64,000 bases of DNA from an uncultured Schlesneria sp. (GTDB taxonomy: Bacteria; Planctomycetota; Planctomycetia; Planctomycetales; Planctomycetaceae), in contig CAIMFH010000161.1 in assembly GCA_903840265.1 (NCBI GenBank), forward strand, positions 1 through 64,000, read 5' to 3'. Below the pieces are notes generated by a model, which worked only from the letters and a program-made list of their open reading frames with translations, ran no database searches and had not been told where the DNA came from. The position numbers and the translations under genes were made by a program. Shown here in pieces: positions 1,187-59,470 of the stretch; positions within the stretch are counted from its first letter, which is position 1; each line of letters starts with the position of its first letter.

Positions 1187-2196
1187 TGCTTCTTCAATCC
1201 CGCCGAGTTCGTACCGAATCCCCCCGCGTGCATGCCTCCGTCGGCCGTGCCGATGCTGCCTGCGCCAGCCTGCTGGAAGTACGGCATCTCTCGCGAAGTT
1301 TCGGCTCGCATCAGGCTGTCGTCGATGTGAGCTTTAAGCTGGAGAAGGGTGAAGTGCTGGGACTGCTCGGCCCCAACGGCGCTGGCAAAAGCACGTCAAT
1401 GATGATGATCTCGGGATTGCTTCGCCCCGATCATGGTGAAGTCGTCATCAATGGGCAGGTCTACAATGGACGTGATCCGAATCTGAAACGACAGATCGGA
1501 CTGGTCCCCCAGGATCTGGCGATCTATCCGGAACTTAATGCGATCGAAAACTTGCTGTTCTTCGGCAAGCTTTATGGAATTCGCGGCCGCGAGCTTCAGT
1601 CTCGCTGCGACGAAGTCCTGCAACGCATTGGGCTAACTGACAGCGCTCACCGCGCGTCTGGCAACTATTCCGGTGGCATGAAACGCCGTCTAAACTTCGG
1701 CGTAGCCCTGATGCACCAACCCTCGATTCTGATCCTTGACGAGCCGACAGTCGGGATTGACCCGCAATCACGATCGCATCTTCTCGAATGTGTGCGAGAT
1801 CAGGCGCTGTCCGGTGTCGGAGTGATCTACGCCAGTCACTACATGGAAGAGGTCCAGGAGATCTGCGAACGCGTTGCGATCGTCGACCACGGTAAAGTGT
1901 TGGCCTGCGACAGCATCCCCCGACTTCTCGAAGGATTAAACACCAGCCTCCTTATCCATGTGGAGGGAGAAGGCGACGTTCAAGGTCGGCTGGCGGGATT
2001 GGCCAGACTGGAACGAGCGGCCGATGGAACCGCGGTGATTGTCGTCAGCGGCGATTGTCGCGATATGGGCGAGCGATTGCGATCGCTTTTACACCACCTG
2101 ATGGCGGCGCGCGTCAAAGTGGCTCGCATCGAAACCCAGCAAACAAACCTTGAACGATTGTTCCTGCAACTGACCGGTTACGGTTTACGAGACTAG
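1186..2196 (+). CDS. ABC-2 type exporter, ATP-binding subunit
   Basis: This is the cytoplasmic ATPase of an ABC exporter. It has Walker A GPNGAGKS, the Q-loop at QDLAIYPE, signature YSGGMKRR, Walker B ILILDEPTVGID and the switch histidine in YASHYMEE. About 30 residues precede the nucleotide-binding domain, which is longer than usual, and about 90 residues follow it as in other DrrA/CcmA-like subunits. The ATG at 1186 overlaps the preceding stop by one base; an in-frame GTG at 1183 and TTG at 1180 also exist. The permease starts 24 bp downstream, so the pair forms one transporter. The substrate cannot be read from the sequence, though the lipid-kinase-like neighbour hints at a lipid or envelope compound. 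Confidence 0.9.
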   Translation: MLLQSRRVRTESPRVHASVGRADAACASLLEVRHLSRSFGSHQAVVDVSFKLEKGEVLGLLGPNGAGKSTSMMMISGLLRPDHGEVVINGQVYNGRDPNLKRQIGLVPQDLAIYPELNAIENLLFFGKLYGIRGRELQSRCDEVLQRIGLTDSAHRASGNYSGGMKRRLNFGVALMHQPSILILDEPTVGIDPQSRSHLLECVRDQALSGVGVIYASHYMEEVQEICERVAIVDHGKVLACDSIPRLLEGLNTSLLIHVEGEGDVQGRLAGLARLERAADGTAVIVVSGDCRDMGERLRSLLHHLMAARVKVARIETQQTNLERLFLQLTGYGLRD

Positions 2197-2220
2197 TTAC
2201 CAACCGCCTTCTGTGAGCTG

Positions 2221-3432
2221 ATGATGTCTGCCTGGCAGATTACTCGAAAAGACTTGCTGCTGCTGTTGAAAGACAGACGCGCCGTCGTGCTATTACTGAT
2301 CCTGCCGTTGCTGTTCATTTCCATCGTGGGAATGTCCACTGGGCAGTTTCTGACACGCGACGACAACAGTCAGAAATTTCGCATCCTGGTTGTCGACCAG
2401 AACAGCAGCGATCTGTCTCAACAATTGATTCAAGAGCTGAAACGAAATCGAGAATTCTCGGTCACGACAGGTGACTCGGCAGCCGACGCAGATGACAAGC
2501 TGCAACGCGGCGATGCTTCGATGATGATTACGATCGGAGCGGATTTCGAGAATCGAGCCGAGCAACTGCGGATCTCGGAAGTTTTCAACTCGGATTCGGG
2601 AATGCTGGCAGGTGGTCCCGAGGCGCTCGACGTCAAACTCGAAACTCGACCCGCCGCGATCGGTATTGGTCGGCTTCTCGAGGGCGTGATCTTCAGCAAG
2701 ATGATTAAGGTCGTCGCCCCCGTCGCCGCTCGTAAGAATCCGGTTACACGCACTTGGGTTGAAGACACCCCTTCCGATCAGGAGCCGAAGCCGGCCGCGG
2801 TATCCTCTGTGGAAAAGTACATCCCTCAACCAAGCGCTGTTTACTCGTGGATCGTGCCTGGGTTCACAGTGATGTTTGCCTTCTTCGTCATCAGCGTGAT
2901 GGCACGCTCGTTCATCTCCGAGCGTGAGAATGGCACTTTGCGAAGGTTACTGTTGTCACCCATTAGTCAGACTTCCGTTCTGGCCGGGAAGACGATCCCC
3001 TTCTTCCTGACATCGGTCATCCAGTGCCTGCTGCTATTCGGCTGCGGGCGCGTGCTGTTCGGGATGTCCTGGGGACCAGCCCCGATCTACTTGATTCCAG
3101 TGATCCTTTGCACATCGCTGGCGGCAACATCGTTGGGCTTATTGTTGGCAACGATGGTCCATACCGATCAACAGGTCTCTTCCTACGGAACAACGCTGAT
3201 CCTGGTCCTTAGCAGCATGAGCGGCTGTTTTTTTCCACGTGACCTGTTTCCGCAAACGATGAAGCAGATCAGCCTCTTCACACCCCACGGCTGGGCACTA
3301 AAAGCATTCGACGCAGTACTCAGTCAGGCGACCGTCGATCTTACAACCGTCGCCACTTGCTGCGGCATGCTGGTGCTGTTCGCGGTCGTCTTCTTCGCGA
3401 CAGGAAGCTGGCGCTTCCGCGTCGCCAGCTAG
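2221..3432 (+). CDS. ABC-2 type exporter, permease subunit
   Basis: This 403-residue membrane protein has the ABC-2 permease layout. There is one helix near residues 22-44, a large extracytoplasmic loop of about 170 residues, and then five hydrophobic segments starting with SWIVPGFTVMFAFFVISVM. The RENGTLRRLL motif just after the second helix is typical of the family and contacts the ATPase. It follows the ATP-binding subunit closely in the same direction, and the two should assemble as a 2+2 complex in the inner membrane. It ends facing the convergent gene at 3454, only 21 bp away. Confidence 0.88.
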   Translation: MMSAWQITRKDLLLLLKDRRAVVLLLILPLLFISIVGMSTGQFLTRDDNSQKFRILVVDQNSSDLSQQLIQELKRNREFSVTTGDSAADADDKLQRGDASMMITIGADFENRAEQLRISEVFNSDSGMLAGGPEALDVKLETRPAAIGIGRLLEGVIFSKMIKVVAPVAARKNPVTRTWVEDTPSDQEPKPAAVSSVEKYIPQPSAVYSWIVPGFTVMFAFFVISVMARSFISERENGTLRRLLLSPISQTSVLAGKTIPFFLTSVIQCLLLFGCGRVLFGMSWGPAPIYLIPVILCTSLAATSLGLLLATMVHTDQQVSSYGTTLILVLSSMSGCFFPRDLFPQTMKQISLFTPHGWALKAFDAVLSQATVDLTTVATCCGMLVLFAVVFFATGSWRFRVAS

Positions 3433-46433: not shown

Positions 46434-46714
46434 CGATCAGATCCTGATTCCATGTGACACTGCGCCGAGTGCACTCGTCACTATGGACCATTGCGTGAGT
46501 TGGCCGGCGCAGGAACGCGGTTGTCATACTGTGATATGAAGGTCTTAGCAAAGAACGCGGGGGGAACAATCGCAGATTGCGGGGCTTTCATCAAGCGGCA
46601 CACGACCTCGAACGTGGCACCGGCTGGCATTGATATCTCAGCAGTGACGGCTGAGAATCGCAGAGCAGCTCATTGGATTGCGACCCAGGGAAAGCGGCCT
46701 CTCAAGAGAAGACC

Positions 46715-49003
46715 ATGCTAATTCGCGACGTTGACAGGCGTGTGTGCTCTTCGATGCATGCCATGTATTTGACGAACATCCTGCTGGGTTTCGCAATTCT
46801 CCTATGTGTTGTGCCCGGATTGTCCGAGGCGGCTGAATCTGCGGCTGTCACCATCACACGTGATGAATGGGGTGTGGCGCACATTCATGGAAAAACGCAT
46901 ACCGACACGTTCTTCGGCATGGGGTACGTGCAAGCCGAAGACTATTTCTGGCAGTTGGAAGACACCTGCATACGATCGCTTGGTCGCTACGCGGGGGTGG
47001 TGGGTGAGGCCGGGATTTCCAGCGATATCTTGAATCGCAGCTTTGAAGTTGCTCGAAGATCCCAGAACGATTTTGAAAAACTGAAGCCGGAACATCAGCT
47101 AAGGGCAGCCGCCTATGCGGATGGGATCAATCGATATTTGACCACGCATGTGGAAACGAAGCCCAGGCTTCTGAAACATTTTGAGCCCTGGTATGTCCTG
47201 GCGATGGACCGCCACATGATCCTCGACTTCATCTATCGTCGCTCTCATGTCAAACGTCCTGCGGATCGCGGTCCGCAAGACGTGGCGTTACGTGCGCAAC
47301 AGATTGATGCGACCAGTGTGGCCACTGACCCCTGGAGTTTCCCGAGTCCCTCCGTGACCGGATTCGCGGCCGAAGTCCGGGCCGCGATCGGTTCCAATGC
47401 GTGGGCGATTGCCGGATCGAGGACGCAATCGGGATCGGCCATGCTGTTCGTGAATCCTCATCAGCCCTGGTATGGAATGGGGCAGTTTCACGAAGTCCAC
47501 GTTAGCAGCGACGAAGGGCTGAATTTTAGTGGAGCCTGCTTTTTTGGAAACCCGTTTCCCACGATCGGACACAACGAGCATCTCGGCTGGACGTACACGG
47601 TCAACAGTCCCGACGTGGCCGATGCCTGGCGAGTCACGTTCGACGACGCCGCCCGACCGCTTCACTACCGATTTGATGGGGCCTATCGTGAAGCGGTTCA
47701 ATGGACGGAGACCGTGGGTGTCATCCAAGGTGGTGTCTTGGTTCAGCGTCCACTGACTTTTCGCAAGACACATCACGGGCCGATCGTCAGCAAAGAGAAC
47801 GACACCACGTTTCTGGCAGTCCAGGTGGCGGGGTTATTCGACATGAAACGTGTCGACCAAGCCTGGGGAATGGTCCTGGCCACGAACTACGCGGAATGGC
47901 GGGCCGCGATGAGTCACTGCGCAATTCCGATGTTCAATGTCGTCTATGCAGATCGCGCGGGAAATATCTTTTACGCCTACAACGGAACCATTCCAGTACG
48001 CGATCCCGCATTTGACTGGATGCAACCTGTCGACGGCAGCGACGCTCGCACCGACTGGAAGGGCACACACACATTTGATCAATTGCCGCAAGTCTTCAAT
48101 CCCAAGTGTGGCTACGTGCAAAGCTGTAATTCCTCCCCCTTCACGACCACCGGCGATGTCGATCAGGATCCACGACCGGAGAACTTTCCCAAGTACATGC
48201 TGGAGGATCACGATGTCGACATGAGACGCGCGAAGATGTCACGTCTGTTGCTGGGCAAGATGCAAGGCCTGACTATTGCGCAACTGCAAGTTCTGGCCTT
48301 CGACACGACCCTCTATTGGCCGCTGACGGAGTTGCCTGGCCTGCGAGAGGACTTTGTGCGACTACAAACGACCGACGCAGAACTTGCGAAAGAAGTCGCA
48401 CCGATGATGGAGCACCTGGCAAATTGGGACTGCAGGTCGTCTCTGGACTCAACACAAACGACATTGTGTGTCGCCTGGTACGAGGAACTCTACGGTTTTG
48501 GCTATCCGGCCGAGACCTTGAAGGTCGAATACGCCGACCGCATGCGATGGTTCGTGGCATTGAAAACTGCGGCCAGGAAGCTAAAGGGCCTTTATGGTGA
48601 CTGGAAGCATCCATGGGGAAAAGCTCATCGATTGCAGCGAATTGCCGACCAGTCGGAAGTGCAGAGTGCCGGGATCTATGTGAATGGTGTGGAGCGAAGT
48701 CTGCCACTCGCGGGAGTACCTGGTCCACTGGGTATCATCCATACCGTCTACTCCACACCAGAGATTCCCATAGTGCGGCCTCAGCGTTTCGCGGTCGTGG
48801 GAGCCTCGTATCTGTCGGTGGTTGAATTCGCGGACCCGGTTCGCAGTCTCAGCGTGATGCCGTTCGGCTCGAGCGGACGACGCAAATCCCCTCACTTCTT
48901 CGACCAAGCCCAATTGTATTCGTCACATCGCCTCAAATCGGCCTGGTTTACGAAGGAGGAGATCGCAAATCACGCCAACGTCACTGTTGAACTCGATCGA
49001 TAA
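46715..49003 (+). CDS. exported penicillin acylase family protein (Ntn hydrolase)
   Basis: This 762-residue protein has an N-terminal hydrophobic segment (TNILLGFAILLCVVPGLSEA) and the acylase family pattern: ITRDEWGVAHIHGKTHTDTF, FGMGYVQAEDYFWQLE, and the nucleophile GSNAWAIAG near residues 226-234, where autocleavage would free the N-terminal Ser of the beta chain. FVNPHQPWYG, NIFYAYNGTIP and the C-terminal half complete it. Relatives cleave penicillin, acyl-homoserine lactones or other amides; the substrate is not known. The ATG at 46715 is chosen, and a later ATG at 46757 is possible. It converges on the giant gene, 42 bp away. Confidence 0.87.
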   Translation: MLIRDVDRRVCSSMHAMYLTNILLGFAILLCVVPGLSEAAESAAVTITRDEWGVAHIHGKTHTDTFFGMGYVQAEDYFWQLEDTCIRSLGRYAGVVGEAGISSDILNRSFEVARRSQNDFEKLKPEHQLRAAAYADGINRYLTTHVETKPRLLKHFEPWYVLAMDRHMILDFIYRRSHVKRPADRGPQDVALRAQQIDATSVATDPWSFPSPSVTGFAAEVRAAIGSNAWAIAGSRTQSGSAMLFVNPHQPWYGMGQFHEVHVSSDEGLNFSGACFFGNPFPTIGHNEHLGWTYTVNSPDVADAWRVTFDDAARPLHYRFDGAYREAVQWTETVGVIQGGVLVQRPLTFRKTHHGPIVSKENDTTFLAVQVAGLFDMKRVDQAWGMVLATNYAEWRAAMSHCAIPMFNVVYADRAGNIFYAYNGTIPVRDPAFDWMQPVDGSDARTDWKGTHTFDQLPQVFNPKCGYVQSCNSSPFTTTGDVDQDPRPENFPKYMLEDHDVDMRRAKMSRLLLGKMQGLTIAQLQVLAFDTTLYWPLTELPGLREDFVRLQTTDAELAKEVAPMMEHLANWDCRSSLDSTQTTLCVAWYEELYGFGYPAETLKVEYADRMRWFVALKTAARKLKGLYGDWKHPWGKAHRLQRIADQSEVQSAGIYVNGVERSLPLAGVPGPLGIIHTVYSTPEIPIVRPQRFAVVGASYLSVVEFADPVRSLSVMPFGSSGRRKSPHFFDQAQLYSSHRLKSAWFTKEEIANHANVTVELDR

Positions 49004-49045: not shown

Positions 49046-52000
49046 TTATTTCGGAATCAGCGATTCAAGCGCCGATGCCTGGAACTGCACATTGTTGAAT
49101 CGAGCGGGCCAATCTGTCTTTCGCAGTTTGAGAATGGTGGCTCGTGCGGCGTCCCATTGTTTCTGATGCAACTGAGCTTCGGCCAGTTTGAGCAACCCGT
49201 TTGGCTCCAGCTTTCGGAATTCAGCGACGAGTTCCCAGTGTGGGATCGCTTCGGCCCAGCGGTCCTGCTTTTGCCGCAATTCGGCCATCACGGCTTGATT
49301 CTCAGCTTCGTTGGGAGAGGCCTCTACAATCGACGTGGCGGCTCGTTCCGCTTCAGCCTCGTTACCTTGCAGCCGATCCGCCAGTTCCTGGTAAAGAGGC
49401 AGATCGCTACGACGCAGATCGATCAACTTCAGGAGTTGCCTGGTTCCCGCAGGTCGATCGTTGGTGGCGTCGTAGCACGCGACGAGAGCACGGTGAATTG
49501 CCACGTCGTTCGGTTGCAGATCGACGGCCACTCGCAACTGTGGGATCGCCTTCGCAAATTCATTCTTCTCCTGATAGACGATTCCGATCGCCTTTCGCAG
49601 GATGGCACTGTCCTGACCACTCTTGGCGGCTTCCGCATCGAGGTGCTTCACGTAGTCATCCAAGTCTGCTGCGGATCTCACGACGGACATCAGCGTATTC
49701 AATTGATCCGCACGCTGCTGACTGGTTGGCCCCCAGCAGATCAATGCGGCCGAGGCAGCATCGACAGCCTCCTTCGTCCGACCAAGTGCCGAATACGTGT
49801 GGGCGAGCGTCGCGTAATAGTTGGAGAGCGTACCGTCATTCAGACCGCTGCGGGGATTGGCTCGCTGATGCAGCGCAATGGCCTCGGTCATGTATCCCAC
49901 CGCGCGTTCACGGTCACTACAACTGGAACAGCCACCACCGAGTGCAGCAGCATTGTGCTCGGTCCAGCGGCCCTCCTGATGGAAATGGTCATGAGTCTGC
50001 TGAATCAACTCTGCCAACTGTTGTGGTCGCTGTGAGCGGAAGTAGGCTTGCATCAACAGGACTCGAAACTCGATCTGATCTGGCCGAATTGCGATCAGTC
50101 CTTCTATGATTGGTATCGACTCGGCAAATCGCTGCCGTTCATGCAACCAGTTCACAAGTTGCTGCTGGGCGGCGGCGTCAAGCAGTGTCTGCCGGTGAGC
50201 AATCAGCAGGATCTCAATCGCGCGGTCTTGTTTGGGCAAACCACTCCAGAAATAGCGAGCGACCGACTGCGATCGTCGTCCAGAGGTCTTGTATTCAGCG
50301 AGAACCGCTTCGGCGGCTTTGGCAAATTCGTCAGCCTTCTCTTTCCAGAAATGCTGGTCGTGCTGATAGTAGATGACCTGATTGCGGGGTTCGCCCGTCC
50401 TGAGGTCTCGCTGCAATTCGCGAATCACCAGCTTCAAAACGCGGTCATCAAGATCCGACGCGCCGACCGCCTGCCGACGGCTGCCGAGTTCATTGGCGAA
50501 CGACTGCCAGCAGCTTTCCCACGAGATTTCCAGACGCTGCGGGTACTGCTCCATCCGCTCGACAACGTAACGCAACGCGGCTTTCGGTCCGCAGATATCC
50601 GCAATGCTGCGCATCGGAGATGTGACTGTATTTCGATACTGCGAGATCTGCTTCTTTAGCAGAACGGGCATCACTTCAAAGGCGAAGCTGCGGACGATGT
50701 CAGCGGTGCCAGTAACTTTGTGGCGATTGGCGATTTCAAACGTACTCGTGAGTTGCGAGACCAGAATGTACCGCTCGTTTTCGTCGAGCGATTCGTCGAT
50801 CTGCTTGAGCACGTACTTGTAGATCGGTTCGAACAGCTTGCTTCGTCCCGATCCGAACGAGACCGCGCCGTCGTGTTCCAAAGCCTGGTTGTAAACCGGC
50901 ATCAGTCGGTTTGTCAGCCACTTTCGTTGCTCCGCATGCTCCGGCTTGAGCAGGAGTTTCTGTAGCACCGATTCCGCAGCCATGTATTGCCCTGCCTGCT
51001 CGTACAACGAGACGAACCGGTTCAACGCTTCGATATCCGCATGCGGCCATTGATTGCCATTCGCTTGCGAGTAATCGCGGACTTCGATTGCCATCTCACG
51101 AATGGCTTCGTCGAGGCGGCTGTACGTGGAGCCGATCAGCTGGCACAGGTCACTGGTGATACTCAGGTGATCCCGAGAGAGAGCGGGAGCCAGTTTCTGG
51201 AGCTCCTTCATCTCGCGAAGTTGTTCGGCAGCCAATTTCTCGGGCAAGCCGCCCAGATTGAAGAGGAAGCTCGACATCATCCGCGGCTCACCTGGGCCCC
51301 ATTGTCGTTCGAAGGCTCGTCGCAGTGCGGCGAGGCACGCGTCAATATGGGGACCTGGCTGATTCAGGACTTCAGACGACTTTCTCTCCACCAGAGCTTC
51401 GAGCAAGTCGAGGGCTCGCAGATCGGTCACGGTTCGCTCGCCCGCTCGCAGAACTTTGATCCGAGCCAGAATCTCGTCGGCCGGAGCTTCGTTTCGAACT
51501 TCGGATAGAATGGTCCCATTCAGCTGCTGCAAGAACGCATAAATCTGCTGAGGCGTCCGCCCCATGAGCGAATCTGGCATCATCTGGAGCGTGCGGAAGT
51601 CACGTGAATTCGCGTACAGACTGCGAAGCTGCCACAGGTAGGTTTCCGGCACGGCGGACTTTTCGAAGAGGGCTTTGAACGCCAGCAGCGTATCCTCATC
51701 GAGCACCGTCAATGCCGCGTTTTGTTGCTCCCAGCGCTGAGCCAGTTGATAGACGAGTTGATTCAATTGCCATTCCGGCATCACCTTGTAGGACTCGATC
51801 CGACTGCGTTCGTACAGATCCCGACGGTCCGTCACCAGATACCAATCGGCCAGTTGTTTGAAGTCGCTTGCGGAGAGCAGATTGTCCTTCTGGCAAGCTT
51901 CAAACATTTGAATCGCTTCGTCGAGTTTGCCCCGTTCTGCCAGCAGCCGAGCCAGCGACTGCCGCCAGGGGCCAGTCGAGACATCGTCGCGAATCCAGGC

Positions 52001-55000
52001 GCGCAGCTCTTTCTCTAGTTCGTCGGCACGATCGAGAGCGATCAGGACGCGGAACTTGGCATTGCGCCAGGTACGGCTTGCTTCGTTCACGTCGACTGTT
52101 TCAGCAGGTTTCGCATCCCCTTCAACCGGTTTCACGGCGGCCGCTCGACCCTGCTGGATGCCAATATCGATGAACTTCATGATCCGAGCGACGTCATCTG
52201 CCTTGGCCGACTTGAGGAGTGCCAGTTTGATGACCGTCGTCAGTGCCCGCTGCTTTAGGTTCGATTCCAACAGCCGCACGTTTTCTTTCGGGTCGACGAC
52301 AGGCGGAGTTTGCTCGACATTCGCGATGATGGCATCGTCGACATCGTTGTCATGGTTCACCGGCTGGGGGGGAGCATCACCCAGGATCTTCCAGCAGGTC
52401 TCTGCTACGGCAGCCAGATCTTGACCAAGCTTGACCTCGATCCACGTTCGCTCGATCTTCAGCCAGTTGGAGAGCGGTCCGTTCGTTTTCTTCGCTTCCT
52501 GCTGAAGCCGAGCGGCCAGTTCTGCCTTACCGGCTCGCTGGATCTCCAGCTTTTTCGCGGCGAGTTCTTTGCGGGTCAATTTGTCCAAGCCGCCCTGGTC
52601 CGTCAGCTTTCGTTCCCCGATGCGTTGCCGGTTGGCGAGCATCGAGTCGACCAAACGGTAGAGCGCGGGAACTTCGACGATCAGCCGATCGTTCGCATCT
52701 GGCGTATCAGACAACTCTTTCAGGCGATCAAACGCTTCCTGTTCGATCGCGTCCGTCCACTGAGCCAACAGCAATGCTTCGAAGAGACTCGAAATATAGG
52801 CTTGCTTGAGGTCCGCGGGTGCCGAGGTGATACGCTCTCGCAAGAATGGCAGCAGCAAGTCGTCGCGGAAGCGGTTGCTGTAGATCGAATTCAAGGCCTC
52901 TGATAATTGCTGCTTCTCGAATTTTGATTGCGACTTCTCCCAACGCGATCGCAGTAACGCCGCTATCTCTTTCCAGAGGGCCGTTGGAATCTCTGAGGCA
53001 TCCAATTGCTTCCGGCCCAAGATCGGGACAGGGGCTTCCATTCGTCCAGACATCGTCCAACTCACCAGGTTGTTGATCAATCCCGACGAGAGCGTCGCCG
53101 TATCTGCCTGCAGCATGGCAAAGAATTCGCCTCGCAACCGGTCCGCGATGTCGGACTGCTGAAACTGATGGTGTGAGAAGATGCGCGAAGCGATATCCAG
53201 CTGTGTCGCGTGCAGCACGTAGTAGCGAACCAGCTTGCCGAGTGGCTGATTCCAGCGTTCTTCCATCCGCTGATAGGAGAGGTTGTAAGCACTGCCCAAT
53301 GCAAAGTTGACGGCCACATCAAGACGAATCTGCTGATCCGCAGTCAGCTTCCCTTCGACTTGCGAATCGTTCATCCACTGTTGCGCCGTGGCGTAGGCGT
53401 CGTCGACTTTATCATTGAAGATCAGCGCCGACAGATGCTGCGCGTACGCCGAGTTATACGAATGCGTTGTCGGCTTCAGCGCGATCCATTCCGTCGTAAA
53501 CTTCAGCAGATCACCCCATCGCGACTGAGTTCGATACAGATCCGCGACAACCGAGCGAAGTACTTCCTCGTCTTCTTGACGCCGTTTGACGGGCCGGGCG
53601 AGTTCCTTCTGCAACCAGGCATGAGCGACATCGAATTGGCCTGCTTGTGACAAACGTTGAGCGTAGTCGGTTTGCCAATGCGGATTCCAAGGCCCTTGCT
53701 CGGCAATTGACTTCTTCAGTGCCAGTACTTGCTCGTAGTTACCGAGTCCCTCCTGACAAGTCGCCATCCAGCCGGTCCACTGCAGCATCATGTCCAGTTC
53801 GGCGGGCTGCCGCTCGTACACGGGCTTCAGAAGTTGCACGAACTCGAGAAGTTCCGCGGAAGAAGAGACGCTCTGAGCCTGACCAAGGATGAACGTCGTG
53901 AAGAATAGTTCCTCTGGCTGAGGCTTCGCGACCAGATCTTTCGCTTCTGCGAGCAGTCGATCTCGGCCTTCTTCGTTCCGACGAATCGTCTGTAGCAACA
54001 TCGTGCGGATCCAACGCAGACCGGGTTTACCGACGGTCTGTTTCTCCATCGCGTCGACGTATTTCCACATTTGCTCCCACTGCTGCGATTGGGCGGCATG
54101 CAGGATCATGGCCAGCTCATCGTCGAAGGCGGCTGTTCCGTCGGCAACCTTTTGTCGAGCGACACTCAGTTTGACGAAGGGAAGATGTATGAATTGCACC
54201 GCAGAACGGGCAGCAAGTTCCTGATCGAGACGTTCGGTGAAACGAGGCCGTGGAAGCCCTTGAACATCGAAGGTCGTCTCCGATGTCTTGCGACCGGCAT
54301 CGTCCAGATGGGACACCTTCTGCGGCCACCACGAGCCGGCCACTTCGACGAAGTCGTCTCGTGTTTCGGAACTTGTCAGACGTTCGCCATCAAACCATTC
54401 GTGCTTGATCAGCACATGCTTCGCGGTGTCGATCAGCAGCTGCTCGGCAAAGGTCGAGTCTTTCATCGTCAAAATCAGTTTCATGCGATCCTGGCCGGCG
54501 GGTTCGACTCGGGCGATGCGGTCGCGGAATTGCTCATGCAACGGAAAGACGGAACCGTCGTAAAGTCCCATTGCCTCGGGGCCGAAATCGGTGTCAACGG
54601 CCGACCGCTGGCGGCCCAACAGGAATGAACTGGAATAGGTACCTCGTTCTCGACCTGTGCAATAGTGGATGACGGTCTGCTGAAGGGGATTGAGCGGCTT
54701 CGTGAGCCATCCGCTCGGCGAATAGAGGACGAGGTCGCGATGGCGGCTGAACCGGCGGTTCCAGATGGGATCCAATTGATCTACCACGCGCTGGAATTCG
54801 ATCCCTCCTTCAAATTTGCGGAGTGAATCTGTTCGCGACAAACTTTTGGAAAGCTCAATCGCATCCGCCGACCAGGCATCGGCAGGTCGCACAGCAGGCC
54901 GGTTCAGTGGGCGGGCTTCCAAGGTCGGGAAGAGTGAATTGAGCCAGCCGGTGTAATCAGGACCTCCCGAATAGCCCAAGGTGCGATAGGGCTTAAAGAC

Positions 55001-58000
55001 ACGGCCCCGGTTGCGGTCCCCGTGCGCATCAAAAGCCCATCTGCCAAGCTCTGACTTCTTAGTCTTCTTGGCATCCATGCTGCTCCGCTTGCCGCCAATC
55101 GCGATAGCGCGTCCGTTGCTCAACAGGCCATTCACCGAGATGGCATCGGCGAACCCATCCTGGAAGTCCATGCGTCCGTCAAATACTGTCGTATCGGACA
55201 ACGACTTCAAGTCATCGTCTCGATCTGCCGATTGAGGCTCTGCAACTGCCAGGCTCAGATCTTCCCCATCCTTCATGTCCTTGATCACGCCAAAGTCATC
55301 ACTTTTGGTGGCAAAGAGCTCCACCGGCTGGTCGCCGAGGTAAGCGTCAATATTGACGAAGTCCATAGAATCGCCGAATCCCATACCGCCGCCCATTCCT
55401 CCCATGCGGCCTGAATAAGACATGGGTCCTCCCATAGGGGCGTTGTCGTACCAGCCACCTGATCGGTAGTAGGGGTTCATCGCTTGCTGAAGTTGCTGCT
55501 GCAACAGTTGCGGATTGCGTCCCAGATCATTCAGTCCGAGAAGAATCTGTCGTCGCAGTCCGAGTCGCCAGTCGCCTGCACGTTTCATCTGCGCCTGCAG
55601 CAGTTCGAAGTTGGCGTTGCTGCGACCTTCGGCGAAGAACTTCTCGCCGTCCCGCATCTCATAGCGGCGTTTGACCCCGAACCGTTCTCGATCGGCATCG
55701 GATTCCAGGACTAACAGCGACGTGTAAGGAGTGATGATGTGAAACTCTTCCGACAGGCCGATGATTTCATCTTTGATCTGCGAACTTTGACCCTGGGCGA
55801 GTAACTGATCGAGGTGACCGCGAGCCCACAGGCGGGGGATGAACGAGTTACCCGCTTCGGCATCCTTCAAATTGACATGTGTGGCGTATTTTACCTTCTC
55901 ATTGCCACGCATACCGGTAATCAAGATCTCGCCGGACTGATCTTTCCCCTCGGGAAGATAGCGGCCAACAAGAATCTGCTGAGTCCCCGCGGCGATGTTG
56001 GGAAGCTGTTCGGGATACACAGCAGCCACTTTCAGACCGCGGAATTCGATGTTCAGGTCTCGTAAGCCCGGTTGAGCGATTTCGTTCAGTAGTTCGAGCG
56101 CGATGATCTGCGGCGTCTGTTCATTGGTGATGGCTCGCGATGAACCGCCGGTGGTAGAGGCGATTCCCTTCAAGACGACCGCTTCGTGCGAGTTGCCGAC
56201 GCTGATCGAATGGAATACTCGTCGAGTTCCACTGGCGGGCTTTTCCGCTTTGCTGATCAATTGCTTCAAGCGTTGGACAAATGCCGCCGGGTCTGTTGAG
56301 CCCGCCGACACGATTCCGTCACCAACATACAGCACCTGTGCGTCAGCCGGCGACTTCTGAATCACGTCGGCGAAGGCACGATCCAGATTGGTCCATCCCA
56401 AGGAGACTCGTTCGTCCAGGAACGCTCTGGCCTTCGCTGCGTTCTCGGCATTGACGGACAGCGGCTCGGCAGACAGCCACGCCGTCCCGACATCGGCGCA
56501 CGCCAACTGGAAGTGATCGTCACTGCTAAGCGACATCAGCACCGCGCTGACAAACTCAGCCTGTTGGCGGCGTTTTTCGGAGTCCATTGACGACGAGGTA
56601 TCACACAGCAGCACGACATTCAGCGATTTGCCATCGGGCAATAGCTCTCGCTGCCAGTTTCCTTCGGGCCCGGGTGGAGTCAGTTGAAGCAGGAAATAGC
56701 CGTCATTGCCGCGGCGATGCGGGATCACGACCACATCGGATTGCTTGCCATCGACTTCGCAGACAACCTCGAAGTCTCGCGTCGGCGTGTATTCTTGAGC
56801 TGTGAATTCCACTTGAGCCGAATGCGGGGTCTGCTGTGTTCGCACAGTGTGAGTGGGACACGATACGGCTTTAAGAGGGATCGCCGAATTCACCGTGACG
56901 TTCAGCGACAGTTCACGCAGTGGCTTCGTTCGCAGCAACTCGCTGCGAAGTCCGTATGAGTAGCGATAGCGGTTGGTTCGTAGCGGCAGTACTTGCGTGT
57001 AGACAATCTTGATCCGTTTTTCGGAATGCGCTTCGATGGGGAAGACGCGGGCCTTGAAGATGTTGCCCCCCATCCATTCCAGCAGTCCGGGATCACGCTT
57101 TTCACGCAGGATCGTTTCGAAGATCTCTCGAGCCCGCTGCTTCTCGACGACATCAGCTTCGACCAGATCGTTGCCGATCCACATCCCGAACCCGCTGATC
57201 GATGCATCTTGAGGGAGCGGAAAGTGGAAGACTCCTTCCAATCGAGCGGGAGTATGATTGAAGAAAGACTCTTCGATCGTCGTACGCGCGATCTGATCAC
57301 GGATCTCGACTGAAACCTTGTGATAACCGACCGTCAGCGGCTCGTTACGACCGTCGGGCAGGTTGACGATCAGCGACCCCAGCGATTCATTGCTGGTCGT
57401 GCCTTCGAATCCCGCGAGCCACACCGGCGTCTGGGCCACATCGACTAACTTCTCTTCGCGATCAACGCGAACCAGTTGCTTGTCTTCGGCCTTGAATGCC
57501 CGTTCACCAGTGCGAGGCGCCAGCAAAGTGAACGAGGCCGCTTTGTCCGGCTTCCCACCAACTTTCACCTGCACCTGTCCATTGTGCAGCCTGGCCTGCG
57601 TCGGACTGATGCATTCGATCAACGAGCCCGGTCCCAGCGTGAGTTCGACTTCCGAAGCAAGCGTGATTTTGACGGCGTTCGCGCCGCGCAGTTCCGTTCG
57701 CAGCCAGTCACCTGGTCGCAACAACGTTTCGCGACAAACCGGCGTCCAGCGTTTGGCGAGCATCGGACGTAGCACAACAATTCCTTGGGCTTCGCTCACC
57801 TTGCCGATTCGACCATCTTCGGTCAACGATTTCGCGACGGCAAACTGTTCGTCGGCCACCGGTTGATTGACCGCCACCAGCCGCAATTCGGCGAGAGGTT
57901 GCTTCGCACCCTTCTCGTCAGCAACATCGCGAGCCGTGATACCGACGAGTTGGTTGTTGGTCACGTCGGCGAATGCTTCCACATGGACACGACCCTGCTC

Positions 58001-58693
58001 GCCCGGCAGGTCGACTCGATAAGCATAGCAGTCGCGCCCGCCGTAGGTTGTCCGCTGATAGGGTCGAGCGACCAGCAGCGGCGTGGCGTCTTTCACGCCA
58101 ACTTCCAGCAGCTTCAGCAGATCAATCTGTTTCTCGGGGCTAAGAAACCACGGCGAATCTCCTTCGCTGACGGTGTTTTCGGCCTCGTCGATTTTCCACC
58201 AACGCGAGCCGGCGGCGATTTGATAGCGCTGTGGCGAATCCTGTTTCCGGACAAGGCCGGGAACTCGCACCAGGATTTCCGAGGTCTGGCCCCCCTTCTC
58301 CAATTGCAGGTGCAACGTCGACGCACCGCGAAGTTCCTCCATCACTTTGGAGAATGGGATCGATCCTCCGGCGACCTGGGGAGCAAACGGATTCAGCCAG
58401 ACGGCCAGCAGCGCGACGGCAGCGGACAGAGCGAGCGAACCACGAATCGCGAGGACTAACATGGAGGATCTCCGATCTTTGGGGATCGTTGGTGTGGAAT
58501 CGATTGGACTAACAGCAGTCGGAGGCGTTGGACCTTCGACTGCAGCCGCTCGGGCAAACTCTTCGGCAACTCGTTGACGCAGCGCGTTCAGCGCGGCGAG
58601 ATCAGGACTAGGCGCATCGAGATCGACGGAGCGCAGCAGCCCCCGCAGATCTGTTTCGTCTCGGTGATGTTCAGGCTCGTGAGTCATAGCCAC
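49046..58693 (-). CDS. giant 3215-residue membrane protein: FecR-like, VIT, VWA and TPR regions
   Basis: One open frame of 3215 codons. Residues 1-77 are polar (cytoplasmic), about 78-100 form the only clear membrane helix, and then comes a LolA/MucB-like region (STLHLQLEKGGQTSEIL). A FecR-like domain follows at about 320-385 (RPGDWLRTELRGANAVKITL), a VIT domain at 455-568 (KARVFPIEAHSEKRIKIVY) and a VWA domain at 685-850 with the MIDAS motif DTSSS near 694. A Gly/Met-rich linker lies near 1072-1112, a second LolA-like stretch near 1405-1470, and the rest is helical, with clear TPR-type repeats in the last 350 residues. The gene starts (GTG at 58693, or ATG at 58687) 14 bp after an ECF sigma gene, so the N-terminus probably acts as its anti-sigma. 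The mature mass should face the periplasm. Confidence 0.85.
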   Translation of the reverse strand: MAMTHEPEHHRDETDLRGLLRSVDLDAPSPDLAALNALRQRVAEEFARAAAVEGPTPPTAVSPIDSTPTIPKDRRSSMLVLAIRGSLALSAAVALLAVWLNPFAPQVAGGSIPFSKVMEELRGASTLHLQLEKGGQTSEILVRVPGLVRKQDSPQRYQIAAGSRWWKIDEAENTVSEGDSPWFLSPEKQIDLLKLLEVGVKDATPLLVARPYQRTTYGGRDCYAYRVDLPGEQGRVHVEAFADVTNNQLVGITARDVADEKGAKQPLAELRLVAVNQPVADEQFAVAKSLTEDGRIGKVSEAQGIVVLRPMLAKRWTPVCRETLLRPGDWLRTELRGANAVKITLASEVELTLGPGSLIECISPTQARLHNGQVQVKVGGKPDKAASFTLLAPRTGERAFKAEDKQLVRVDREEKLVDVAQTPVWLAGFEGTTSNESLGSLIVNLPDGRNEPLTVGYHKVSVEIRDQIARTTIEESFFNHTPARLEGVFHFPLPQDASISGFGMWIGNDLVEADVVEKQRAREIFETILREKRDPGLLEWMGGNIFKARVFPIEAHSEKRIKIVYTQVLPLRTNRYRYSYGLRSELLRTKPLRELSLNVTVNSAIPLKAVSCPTHTVRTQQTPHSAQVEFTAQEYTPTRDFEVVCEVDGKQSDVVVIPHRRGNDGYFLLQLTPPGPEGNWQRELLPDGKSLNVVLLCDTSSSMDSEKRRQQAEFVSAVLMSLSSDDHFQLACADVGTAWLSAEPLSVNAENAAKARAFLDERVSLGWTNLDRAFADVIQKSPADAQVLYVGDGIVSAGSTDPAAFVQRLKQLISKAEKPASGTRRVFHSISVGNSHEAVVLKGIASTTGGSSRAITNEQTPQIIALELLNEIAQPGLRDLNIEFRGLKVAAVYPEQLPNIAAGTQQILVGRYLPEGKDQSGEILITGMRGNEKVKYATHVNLKDAEAGNSFIPRLWARGHLDQLLAQGQSSQIKDEIIGLSEEFHIITPYTSLLVLESDADRERFGVKRRYEMRDGEKFFAEGRSNANFELLQAQMKRAGDWRLGLRRQILLGLNDLGRNPQLLQQQLQQAMNPYYRSGGWYDNAPMGGPMSYSGRMGGMGGGMGFGDSMDFVNIDAYLGDQPVELFATKSDDFGVIKDMKDGEDLSLAVAEPQSADRDDDLKSLSDTTVFDGRMDFQDGFADAISVNGLLSNGRAIAIGGKRSSMDAKKTKKSELGRWAFDAHGDRNRGRVFKPYRTLGYSGGPDYTGWLNSLFPTLEARPLNRPAVRPADAWSADAIELSKSLSRTDSLRKFEGGIEFQRVVDQLDPIWNRRFSRHRDLVLYSPSGWLTKPLNPLQQTVIHYCTGRERGTYSSSFLLGRQRSAVDTDFGPEAMGLYDGSVFPLHEQFRDRIARVEPAGQDRMKLILTMKDSTFAEQLLIDTAKHVLIKHEWFDGERLTSSETRDDFVEVAGSWWPQKVSHLDDAGRKTSETTFDVQGLPRPRFTERLDQELAARSAVQFIHLPFVKLSVARQKVADGTAAFDDELAMILHAAQSQQWEQMWKYVDAMEKQTVGKPGLRWIRTMLLQTIRRNEEGRDRLLAEAKDLVAKPQPEELFFTTFILGQAQSVSSSAELLEFVQLLKPVYERQPAELDMMLQWTGWMATCQEGLGNYEQVLALKKSIAEQGPWNPHWQTDYAQRLSQAGQFDVAHAWLQKELARPVKRRQEDEEVLRSVVADLYRTQSRWGDLLKFTTEWIALKPTTHSYNSAYAQHLSALIFNDKVDDAYATAQQWMNDSQVEGKLTADQQIRLDVAVNFALGSAYNLSYQRMEERWNQPLGKLVRYYVLHATQLDIASRIFSHHQFQQSDIADRLRGEFFAMLQADTATLSSGLINNLVSWTMSGRMEAPVPILGRKQLDASEIPTALWKEIAALLRSRWEKSQSKFEKQQLSEALNSIYSNRFRDDLLLPFLRERITSAPADLKQAYISSLFEALLLAQWTDAIEQEAFDRLKELSDTPDANDRLIVEVPALYRLVDSMLANRQRIGERKLTDQGGLDKLTRKELAAKKLEIQRAGKAELAARLQQEAKKTNGPLSNWLKIERTWIEVKLGQDLAAVAETCWKILGDAPPQPVNHDNDVDDAIIANVEQTPPVVDPKENVRLLESNLKQRALTTVIKLALLKSAKADDVARIMKFIDIGIQQGRAAAVKPVEGDAKPAETVDVNEASRTWRNAKFRVLIALDRADELEKELRAWIRDDVSTGPWRQSLARLLAERGKLDEAIQMFEACQKDNLLSASDFKQLADWYLVTDRRDLYERSRIESYKVMPEWQLNQLVYQLAQRWEQQNAALTVLDEDTLLAFKALFEKSAVPETYLWQLRSLYANSRDFRTLQMMPDSLMGRTPQQIYAFLQQLNGTILSEVRNEAPADEILARIKVLRAGERTVTDLRALDLLEALVERKSSEVLNQPGPHIDACLAALRRAFERQWGPGEPRMMSSFLFNLGGLPEKLAAEQLREMKELQKLAPALSRDHLSITSDLCQLIGSTYSRLDEAIREMAIEVRDYSQANGNQWPHADIEALNRFVSLYEQAGQYMAAESVLQKLLLKPEHAEQRKWLTNRLMPVYNQALEHDGAVSFGSGRSKLFEPIYKYVLKQIDESLDENERYILVSQLTSTFEIANRHKVTGTADIVRSFAFEVMPVLLKKQISQYRNTVTSPMRSIADICGPKAALRYVVERMEQYPQRLEISWESCWQSFANELGSRRQAVGASDLDDRVLKLVIRELQRDLRTGEPRNQVIYYQHDQHFWKEKADEFAKAAEAVLAEYKTSGRRSQSVARYFWSGLPKQDRAIEILLIAHRQTLLDAAAQQQLVNWLHERQRFAESIPIIEGLIAIRPDQIEFRVLLMQAYFRSQRPQQLAELIQQTHDHFHQEGRWTEHNAAALGGGCSSCSDRERAVGYMTEAIALHQRANPRSGLNDGTLSNYYATLAHTYSALGRTKEAVDAASAALICWGPTSQQRADQLNTLMSVVRSAADLDDYVKHLDAEAAKSGQDSAILRKAIGIVYQEKNEFAKAIPQLRVAVDLQPNDVAIHRALVACYDATNDRPAGTRQLLKLIDLRRSDLPLYQELADRLQGNEAEAERAATSIVEASPNEAENQAVMAELRQKQDRWAEAIPHWELVAEFRKLEPNGLLKLAEAQLHQKQWDAARATILKLRKTDWPARFNNVQFQASALESLIPK

Positions 58694-58707
58694 ATTTCGG
58701 GACAGGT

Positions 58708-59319
58708 CTATCGAACTTCGCAGTCGTTGCGACGGATCGTCGGTTCGCGAACTAACACTTCCATCCGGGCTCGAAATTCACGTCGTGCCCGGGCCAACTT
58801 TGATTTGATGGCATCTACCGTTCCCCCCGATTCTCGAGACAACTCGTCGAGCGTTCGTTCGTCGAGGTATTTCGCTGTCAGCAGCGCCGAATAGTCCGCG
58901 GGCAAATCGGCCAGCACACCACGAACCGCATCGGCCAGTTCCAGCCGAGCCCACGGTTCGTCGGCCGGTTCCGATGTTTCCAGCCAGCGGCGTAATTCGT
59001 CGGCTCTCGCTTCAACCAGTTCCTTCAGTCGCTGAACCTTGTTGATCTGTCGCCAGTACAGGGCCGACTGGTGATGCGCGATACCCGACAGCCACGCCCA
59101 CAGAGTTCCTCGCTGCGGATCAAATTGCCGGGCTGATCGAGCTGCCGCCAGAAATGTTTCTTGCACGATATCTGCCACGGCTGCGGTTTCTGGGCCGACC
59201 AGTCGTGCGACGTACCGCCAGATATCTGCACTGTATCCGTCATACAGGGCAGACCAGGCGTCTCGATCGCCGAGCCGCAATCCGCAGATCACGGCCTGTT
59301 GGTCAGGCTCATCAAGCAC
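58708..59319 (-). CDS. ECF-type RNA polymerase sigma factor
   Basis: This 203-residue sigma-70 family protein has region 2 (DAWSALYDGYSADIWRYVAR, IVQETFLAAARSARQFDP, LWAWLSGIAHH) and region 4 (LADLPADYSALLTAKYLDE, LDELSRESGGTVDAIKSKLA), with no region 1 or 3, as in extracytoplasmic-function sigmas. The C-terminus after region 4 is short. The GTG at 59319 is used as start. The giant FecR/VIT/VWA gene follows in the same direction after 14 bp, which makes them an operon and suggests a sigma/anti-sigma pair. Confidence 0.93.
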   Translation of the reverse strand: MLDEPDQQAVICGLRLGDRDAWSALYDGYSADIWRYVARLVGPETAAVADIVQETFLAAARSARQFDPQRGTLWAWLSGIAHHQSALYWRQINKVQRLKELVEARADELRRWLETSEPADEPWARLELADAVRGVLADLPADYSALLTAKYLDERTLDELSRESGGTVDAIKSKLARARREFRARMEVLVREPTIRRNDCEVR

Positions 59320-59470
59320 GAGGTATCTCGTTAGTCAGGGCTGTCGTTCCGAAAACAATTGGCGCTTCGACGAGGCGAAGTGTCGCGGAGTTCTCAGATT
59401 TTCGAGGAGAAGTGAGGAAATCGCGAAATTGAAATCCGCCAGCGTCGCCGCAACTCCTTTAGGAGTCGGG

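Follow-up and report, generated by a model that had tools for sequence, protein, structure and literature searches.

What links an extracytoplasmic function (ECF) sigma factor with the giant gene that directly follows it? This question is raised by one locus of the window analysed here, a stretch of 64,000 nucleotides from an uncultured Schlesneria sp. (contig CAIMFH010000161.1), in which a gene encoding an ECF sigma factor of 203 amino acids (aa) (58708..59319, minus strand, as are all features of the pair given below) is followed by a gene of 3215 codons encoding a giant membrane protein (49046..58693). Planctomycetes have many ECF sigma factors as well as giant genes of unknown role, and the giant family described here links that abundance of ECF sigma factors with the giant genes. 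Our answer is that the pair quite likely constitutes a two-gene, probably self-activating ECF module, in which the giant protein would be a class-II-like membrane anti-sigma factor carrying a giant sensor body.

The sigma factor and giant genes form a conserved pair

Both genes were identified by open reading frame (ORF) calls and Pfam. The first encodes an ECF sigma factor according to Pfam Sigma70_r2 (46.3 bits, cut-off 24), Sigma70_r4_2 (29.5 bits, cut-off 25.7) and NCBIfam TIGR02937 (71.0 bits, cut-off 42.9), and it falls outside the TIGR02989 (gvs1) subfamily (70.7 bits versus a cut-off of 124.55). Its start codon is GTG; when the window was aligned with 10 relatives, all 11 rows had GTG or TTG here. 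The intergenic gap is 14 bp as annotated; because the alignment of relatives begins at the ATG of codon 3, the true start of the giant gene is probably at 58687, making the gap 20 bp. The giant frame is no chance ORF, since the ratio of nonsynonymous to synonymous substitution (dN/dS) against its nearest relative (L034) was 0.09 over the whole length and 0.03 in the VIT-VWA part; the other values were 0.035 for the LolA domain, 0.065 for the FecR-like domain, 0.05-0.12 for the tail parts, 0.13 for the second LolA-like region and 0.30 for the linker. The source genome has a single giant gene of this type and no close second copy of the window sigma factor (best other match 47 bits, 25% identity). 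It also encodes an 803-aa VIT-VWA protein (L067, 7761-10169) that lacks the tail and other parts of the giant protein, and no match to the sigma profile query was seen in the L067 region.

The pair recurs in relatives. Among the 25 giant loci of the first relative set that reach upstream, 23 have a sigma gene directly upstream, on the same strand and in one frame; of the other two, L059 has its sigma gene broken into two overlapping frames and L045 (the same locus as L095) retains a remnant only. The distance from sigma stop to giant start ranged from -14 to 343 nt, with overlapping frames in 9 of the 23 measured pairs (start codons chosen by the analyst), and other ORFs recurred in at most 8 of 71 loci and at varying distances. 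It is thus extremely improbable that the two are chance neighbours, i.e. unrelated genes sharing an operon by accident: the pair is adjacent over several families, its frames often overlap and no other neighbour is equally conserved, while the analysis gave no point in support of such an accident.

These results bear out the sequence-only reading of this DNA as to an ECF sigma gene, a 3215-codon gene 14 bp away and one transmembrane (TM) helix. Conserved separation of the two genes in relatives, which that reading would have counted against itself, is not what the survey of relatives found.

As for its distribution, a tail search covering 149 genomes, the source genome included, gave strong matches (at least 240 bits) in 28 genomes, including 9 of 15 of the same genus, so the distribution of the giant is patchy; the larger tally of 51 genomes at E 0.001 takes in weak TPR matches. 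Two genomes have two giant copies each, every copy with an upstream sigma factor (L036 and L056 in G011; L039 and L040 in G020).

Three N-terminal types share one body

Judged from sequence, the giant body is common to three N-terminal types, A, B and C. The loci compared came mainly from a second scan, of named genomes, with a type-A VIT-VWA alignment as query, and the sampling is hence tilted to type A; the best 80 of at least 157 loci were used, which with the window and 11 more gave 92 rows. A short core kept L073, L100 and L135 off the tree, and in L083, L101, L102, L103, L121, L127 and L129 the N-terminus was undecided; among these ten, L100, L103 and L135 also have an upstream sigma factor. 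The sigma counts were made outside L087, whose contig starts at the gene, and outside five type-B loci with less than 600 nt upstream (L108, L124, L126, L128 and L141). Within the best 80 of at least 157 loci, the records were mainly of Planctomycetota, with Verrucomicrobiota, Kiritimatiellota, Lentisphaerota and Latescibacterota labels as well; type A was seen in Planctomycetota-labelled records and in two loci (L090, L098) of one Nealsonbacteria-labelled metagenome-assembled genome (MAG). Among cultured relatives, Zavarzinella formosa DSM 19928 (L091) and Thalassoglobus neptunius KOR42 (L105) have the pair.

Type A (52 tree rows) has a cytosolic segment, a TM helix, usually a LolA-type domain, then the FecR-like, VIT and VWA domains and the tail. 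In its 51 rows with upstream sequence, the sigma gene is in one frame in 48 (including L079, in which about the first 20 residues of the domain lie outside the open frame), split in one (L107, the L059 locus) and reduced to a remnant in two (L092 and L095). Type B (23 rows), assigned by a missing N-terminal match and a leader judged by eye, has a hydrophobic leader immediately before the FecR-like domain. With the sigma profile, none of the 23 rows gave a same-strand upstream sigma factor; upstream sequence of at least 600 nt was available for 18 of them. Ten upstream ORFs from nine type-B loci belonged to varied Pfam families, none of them sigma factors. An ECF-like frame of type-B locus L109 lies on the opposite strand, 8.6 kb off. 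In type C (7 rows), a different, FecR-type anti-sigma factor is fused in frame ahead of the body: among four N-termini scanned, Pfam FecR was above cut-off in L137, L138 and L144 and at 21.6 versus 24 in L118, and the other three were assigned by reading. All seven have an upstream sigma factor by the sigma profile, and Pfam confirmed the six scanned, of which five exceed the TIGR02989 cut-off (L144, 118.9 versus 124.55); four type-A sigma factors score 61-74 bits against the same model.

On the VIT-VWA tree, the distribution of the three types needs 7 changes, and type C as a single clade was rejected (approximately unbiased test, p 0.002, quick tree). The contrast between sigma factor and front end was perfect in 76 rows (Fisher p 8e-18, kinship uncorrected and the two remnants scored as present). 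Because the sigma factor is present in A and C and absent from B, and both switch in C, the sigma factor and the N-terminal module appear to travel together on a shared body. An upstream sigma factor was seen only where the N-terminus is a cytosolic segment followed by a TM helix. Together with the conserved adjacency, this lends good comparative support to the earlier proposal of a regulator that spans the membrane and connects a periplasmic mass of scaffold size with a sigma factor; the adhesive role suggested for that mass gained no support, the evidence speaking neither for nor against it. A wider idea, possible but somewhat doubtful, takes the giant FecR-VIT-VWA-LolA-TPR body for an exported machine or scaffold of the envelope in its own right, which records of several phyla have without an adjoining sigma factor. 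Bacteria would then repeatedly have turned it into a sensor through fused anti-sigma/TM modules of different kinds, so that the sigma factor would report the machine's working or assembly state to its own operon.

Some individual loci deserve mention. The sigma remnants (L092:8820-8972 and L095:9064-9246, in related planctomycete MAGs) are differing small pieces; the sigma factor may have been lost while the giant persisted, or the assemblies may be faulty there. The split sigma gene at L107:7550-8450 represents a real frameshift or a sequencing error, and the near-identical L106 has a single frame. L094 and L096 are planctomycete giants nested in type A that have a hydrophobic leader and neither cytosolic segment nor sigma factor, and L096 has a separate VWA protein about 0.7 kb upstream.

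The N-terminus is a candidate sigma contact

The cytosolic part of the giant protein measures about 75 residues in all, of which the two-helix part takes about 40-45. An alignment of 26 rows (A4) gave a mean column identity of 22% and the majority consensus DDxxLxxLL...PDxxxLxxLRxxSxxxF. The anatomy of class II (CnrY-type) anti-sigma factors, i.e. two short helices before a TM helix, is predicted from this alignment, the TM call and an AlphaFold model of a related locus, L053. For this model, the L053 sigma factor was read through into the first 83 residues of its giant, and the model (mean predicted local distance difference test score (pLDDT) 85, predicted template modelling score (pTM) 0.79) placed helices at 204-210 and 223-245, with pLDDT 82-97 in blocks 201-250; the fold of these helices comes from an artificial fusion for which there were five paired rows only and no control fusion. 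The closest chains were SigW with RsiW (Z 12.1, root-mean-square deviation (rmsd) 6.7) and CnrH with CnrY (Z 11.0, rmsd 6.0, 153 aligned), and such anti-sigma-bound sigma factors ranked above RNA-polymerase-bound ECF sigma factors (Z 9.1), in a comparison that spans mainly residues 1-192, the sigma part. The model fits a CnrY-like clamp and is no proof of it. Taken together, the alignment and the model make residues ~12-50 (58544..58660, the window position being set by alignment) the likely, CnrY-like sigma-binding segment. The sigma contact that the earlier reading sought in residues 1-77 is thereby refined to a shorter segment, by prediction CnrY-like rather than demonstrably FecR-type.

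The same module also occurs without the giant body. A motif search of relatives led to G085 and G044, in which the gene after a family sigma factor encodes a protein of 837 or 875 aa that matches the giant profile at the N-terminus, the TM helix and the LolA-like and FecR-like domains, but not at VIT, VWA or the tail; Pfam assigned no family to the 837-aa protein. A profile search with the N-terminus also recovered both short forms: 32 of its 37 matches were below 1e-6, comprising 26 in frames of at least 2,900 aa, 4 in frames of 801-1,920 aa (among them that of G004, a giant cut off by the contig end) and the two short forms. The family thereby supplies natural comparisons, namely a body without a sigma factor, a sigma module without a body, and two sigma modules on one body.

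These findings bear on whether the sigma factor merely drives a membrane-anchored scaffold, the N-terminus being an anchor that does not touch it. Such a view can point to the apparently exported giants without a sigma factor (type B), to the two loci retaining a giant with a sigma remnant only and to the weak conservation of the N-terminus. We consider it rather unlikely, however, given that in the rows examined the sigma factor is found together with the cytosolic N-terminus and both switch in type C, that the two short forms retain sigma factor, N-terminus and TM helix without the giant body, and that the N-terminus does have a majority consensus.

A promoter-like motif precedes the type-A sigma genes

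Upstream of the window sigma gene, 38 nt before its GTG, stands a promoter-like bipartite motif (GCGACAC ... GCGCCAAT; 59358..59386), a candidate autoregulatory ECF promoter. First noticed in an alignment, the motif was later counted in a data set that shares 11 of its 33 type-A regions with that alignment. Each region comprised the 330 nt leading up to a fixed position within the sigma gene or, for type B, up to the leader of the giant. GCGACAC occurred in 20/33 type-A, 0/21 type-B and 0/6 type-C regions, and GCGACA in 25/33, 0/21 and 1/6, respectively. The gapped pair CGAC...GCAA was present in 16/33 type-A regions, several of which are near relatives, while the best pair in 30 shuffled sets (local 20-nt mononucleotide shuffles) reached 7; the looser pattern CGACA-N13..19-[CG]n?CAA occurred in 19/33 type-A, 1/21 type-B and 0/6 type-C regions. 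Because GCGACAC is specific to type-A upstream regions, these data suggest that the motif is the promoter of the sigma factor itself, which would imply positive autoregulation. If so, the candidate promoter could give a simple reporter readout of the function of a giant envelope protein.

In the source genome, GCGACACN{14,17}GNCAAY had 19 sites versus 4 for the reversed control. Thirteen of the 19 lie inside ORFs, and for three of the other six an ORF on the same strand starts no more than 330 nt away: the sigma gene itself (L170), L173 and L167. At a further locus (L054:12609-16472, in G075:C1088), a second, shorter sigma frame stands upstream of the pair and has an identical 28-base promoter-like site, which suggests a tandem duplication.

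Domain architecture of the giant protein

The single TM helix (residues 76-105, 58379..58468) was called by hydrophobicity, residues ~76-105 being the only stretch of the giant protein passing KD19>1.6. It is followed by a LolA/RseB-fold domain (residues 105-290, 57824..58381) and a FecR-like beta domain (residues ~293-430, 57404..57817). An AlphaFold model of window residues 105-455 (mean pLDDT 84, pTM 0.59) resembles LolA, RseB, MucB and LprG in its first half; Foldseek matched it to LolA (E 2.2e-6) and RseB (E 2.1e-5), and structure comparison gave Z 12.3 for LprG and 9.9 for RseB. Residues ~293-387 (model residues 189-283) match 5ix9, a 'Cell surface anchoring domain' (Foldseek E 0.010, Z 8.2, template-modelling score 0.78 on the target, rmsd 1.3 over 68 columns). 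The LolA-like domain claimed by the sequence-only reading thus stands as a predicted fold and the FecR-like domain as a candidate, whereas Pfam gave no LolA-like or FecR match in the window giant; among 26 family members, Pfam FecR (PF04773) was weak in two (best E 0.027) and Pfam LolA for the first LolA-type domain was weak in one (E 0.041).

The FecR-like domain raises a further explanation, in which the N-terminus would act as a co-activator of the FecR kind (pro-sigma), its release being needed for sigma activity, and would not be only an inhibitor. The N-terminal 59 residues of E. coli FecR are essential for ECF activity (PMC7406223). On the other side, the window giant has no Pfam FecR match, and no standing third partner was seen in the neighbour survey of 71 loci described above; we therefore regard such a co-activator as quite improbable.

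Next come the VIT domain (residues 458-565, 56999..57322), the best-conserved part, and the VWA domain (residues 692-852, 56138..56620), both recognised by Pfam and alignment. In the window giant, VIT PF08487 scored 93.7 bits (cut-off 26.5), VWA PF13768 (VWA_3) 42.4 bits (cut-off 27) and TPR_19 54.5 bits (cut-off 25), in agreement with the earlier naming of VIT, VWA and TPR. The VWA metal-site pattern DxSxS...T...D is conserved in 26 rows (D, S, S and the last D invariant, T nearly so), and we take it to be a metal ion-dependent adhesion site (MIDAS). A Gly/Met-rich variable linker (residues ~1051-1250, 54944..55543) leads to a second LolA-like domain that the earlier domain list had overlooked (residues ~1330-1560, limits inferred; 54014..54706). 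Pfam LolA_like matched this region in 10/26 members (alignment A2, best 7.4e-5), the window member being without a match; a PDB sequence search with A2 gave no LolA structure, and the two LolA-like domains compared as profiles showed no relation (E 0.56). Another alignment, A3, contained no stretch of sufficient conservation for a scan of the collection. The tail (residues ~1640-3215, 49049..53776; Pfam and profile matches) contains TPR arrays at ~1649-1763, ~2244-2295 (weak) and ~3035-3189, including profile matches to TPR structures.

Proposed mechanism

As a self-activating module, the pair might work as follows. The first ~50 residues of the giant protein, two short cytoplasmic helices, would grip the sigma factor in the manner of class II (CnrY-type) anti-sigma factors, in which helix 1 lies on sigma4 and helix 2 on sigma2. 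One TM helix would connect them to a periplasmic part comprising the LolA/RseB-like, FecR-like and VIT-VWA domains and the TPR-bearing tail. The input would be a ligand or an assembly state read by the periplasmic domains; plausibly, the LolA-type domain might take up a lipid or a lipoprotein, or the VWA site or the tail might bind a partner that is a protein or a glycan. A change in the membrane-proximal part would then make the N-terminus free the sigma factor, through conformational change or regulated proteolysis, and the released sigma factor would transcribe its own operon. The LolA-type domain plausibly senses a lipid, by analogy with MucB, whose LolA-like domain is reported to do so (PMC7400510). 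Lipid sensing by this domain cannot be the sole input throughout the family, because the first LolA-type domain is absent from L045, L049 and L052.

Several observations weigh against this reading, besides the limits of the L053 fusion model and of its structure comparison given above. The cytosolic segment has the highest dN/dS of all parts against L034 (0.50, from few changes, versus 0.03-0.13 in the folded domains). The tree-independent contrasts on well supported branches, concordant in 4/4 with remnants scored as present, reach a sign-test p of only 0.125. L136, a type-B locus, has an ECF-like frame on the opposite strand, 0.9 kb beyond the end of the giant. L092 and L095 combine an open giant frame and N-terminus with a sigma remnant only, and the giant may therefore have a sigma-independent role. 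Finally, the exact motif GCGACACN{13,14}GCGCAAA occurs at 20 sites in 17 of the 149 genomes, six of the sites being upstream of an ECF gene of this family (G101, G075 twice, G085, G044:C9 and G020:C231), and the reversed control also gave 20 sites; there is thus no genome-wide excess, and motif searches of the source genome and the 149 genomes found no regulon beyond the operon.

Relation to known systems

The nearest parallel for the proposed sigma contact is CnrY with CnrH. CnrY has a membrane anchor. Like the giant protein, it has a short two-helix cytosolic segment, the class II anatomy described in PMC7406223, and the sigma part of the L053 model resembles CnrY-bound CnrH; the giant protein differs in its external part of ~3,100 residues, and its sigma contact is a predicted one. 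E. coli RseA/RseB and P. aeruginosa MucA/MucB likewise place a LolA-fold domain just outside the membrane in an ECF anti-sigma route, whereas the giant holds that domain and the proposed anti-sigma factor in one chain. FecR-type regulators with TIGR02989 sigma factors (the Rhodopirellula/Verrucomicrobium family) also pair an ECF gene with a downstream gene for a FecR-domain TM protein, and the type-C relatives are such a module joined to the giant body; the window pair differs, with a sigma factor below the TIGR02989 cut-off and a giant without a Pfam FecR match.

Clostridium thermocellum RsgI, according to the accessible text of PMC12203970, has an N-terminal sigma-binding part, one TM helix and external sensors, with release by proteolysis. 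The giant protein resembles it in the first three respects, the sigma-binding part being predicted here, and by analogy its release may also proceed through proteolysis; the differences are that the sigma class is SigI and that a VIT-VWA-TPR body is not described for RsgI in that text. The VIT-VWA core is the same as in TIGR03788 sortase targets and vertebrate ITIH4 (9c4f, E 3.1e-19), but the window giant stays below the TIGR03788 (marine sortase target) cut-off (194.7 versus 551.65 bits) and adds a TM helix and a sigma partner.

ECF/anti-sigma pairs and the FecR, LolA and VIT-VWA domains are already known. Within the literature searched, no title or abstract described a pair of a sigma factor and such a giant; Jogler 2012 and Wiegand 2020 (planctomycete ECF surveys named in PMC8103513) and the 2021 ECF reclassification lay outside the scope of that search. 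Neither the size nor the domain combination nor the fusion of one body with different sigma modules turned up in the literature searched. Beyond the end of the giant gene, the window carries a gene of the Penicillin amidase family (46673-49003, plus strand), which is convergent with it.

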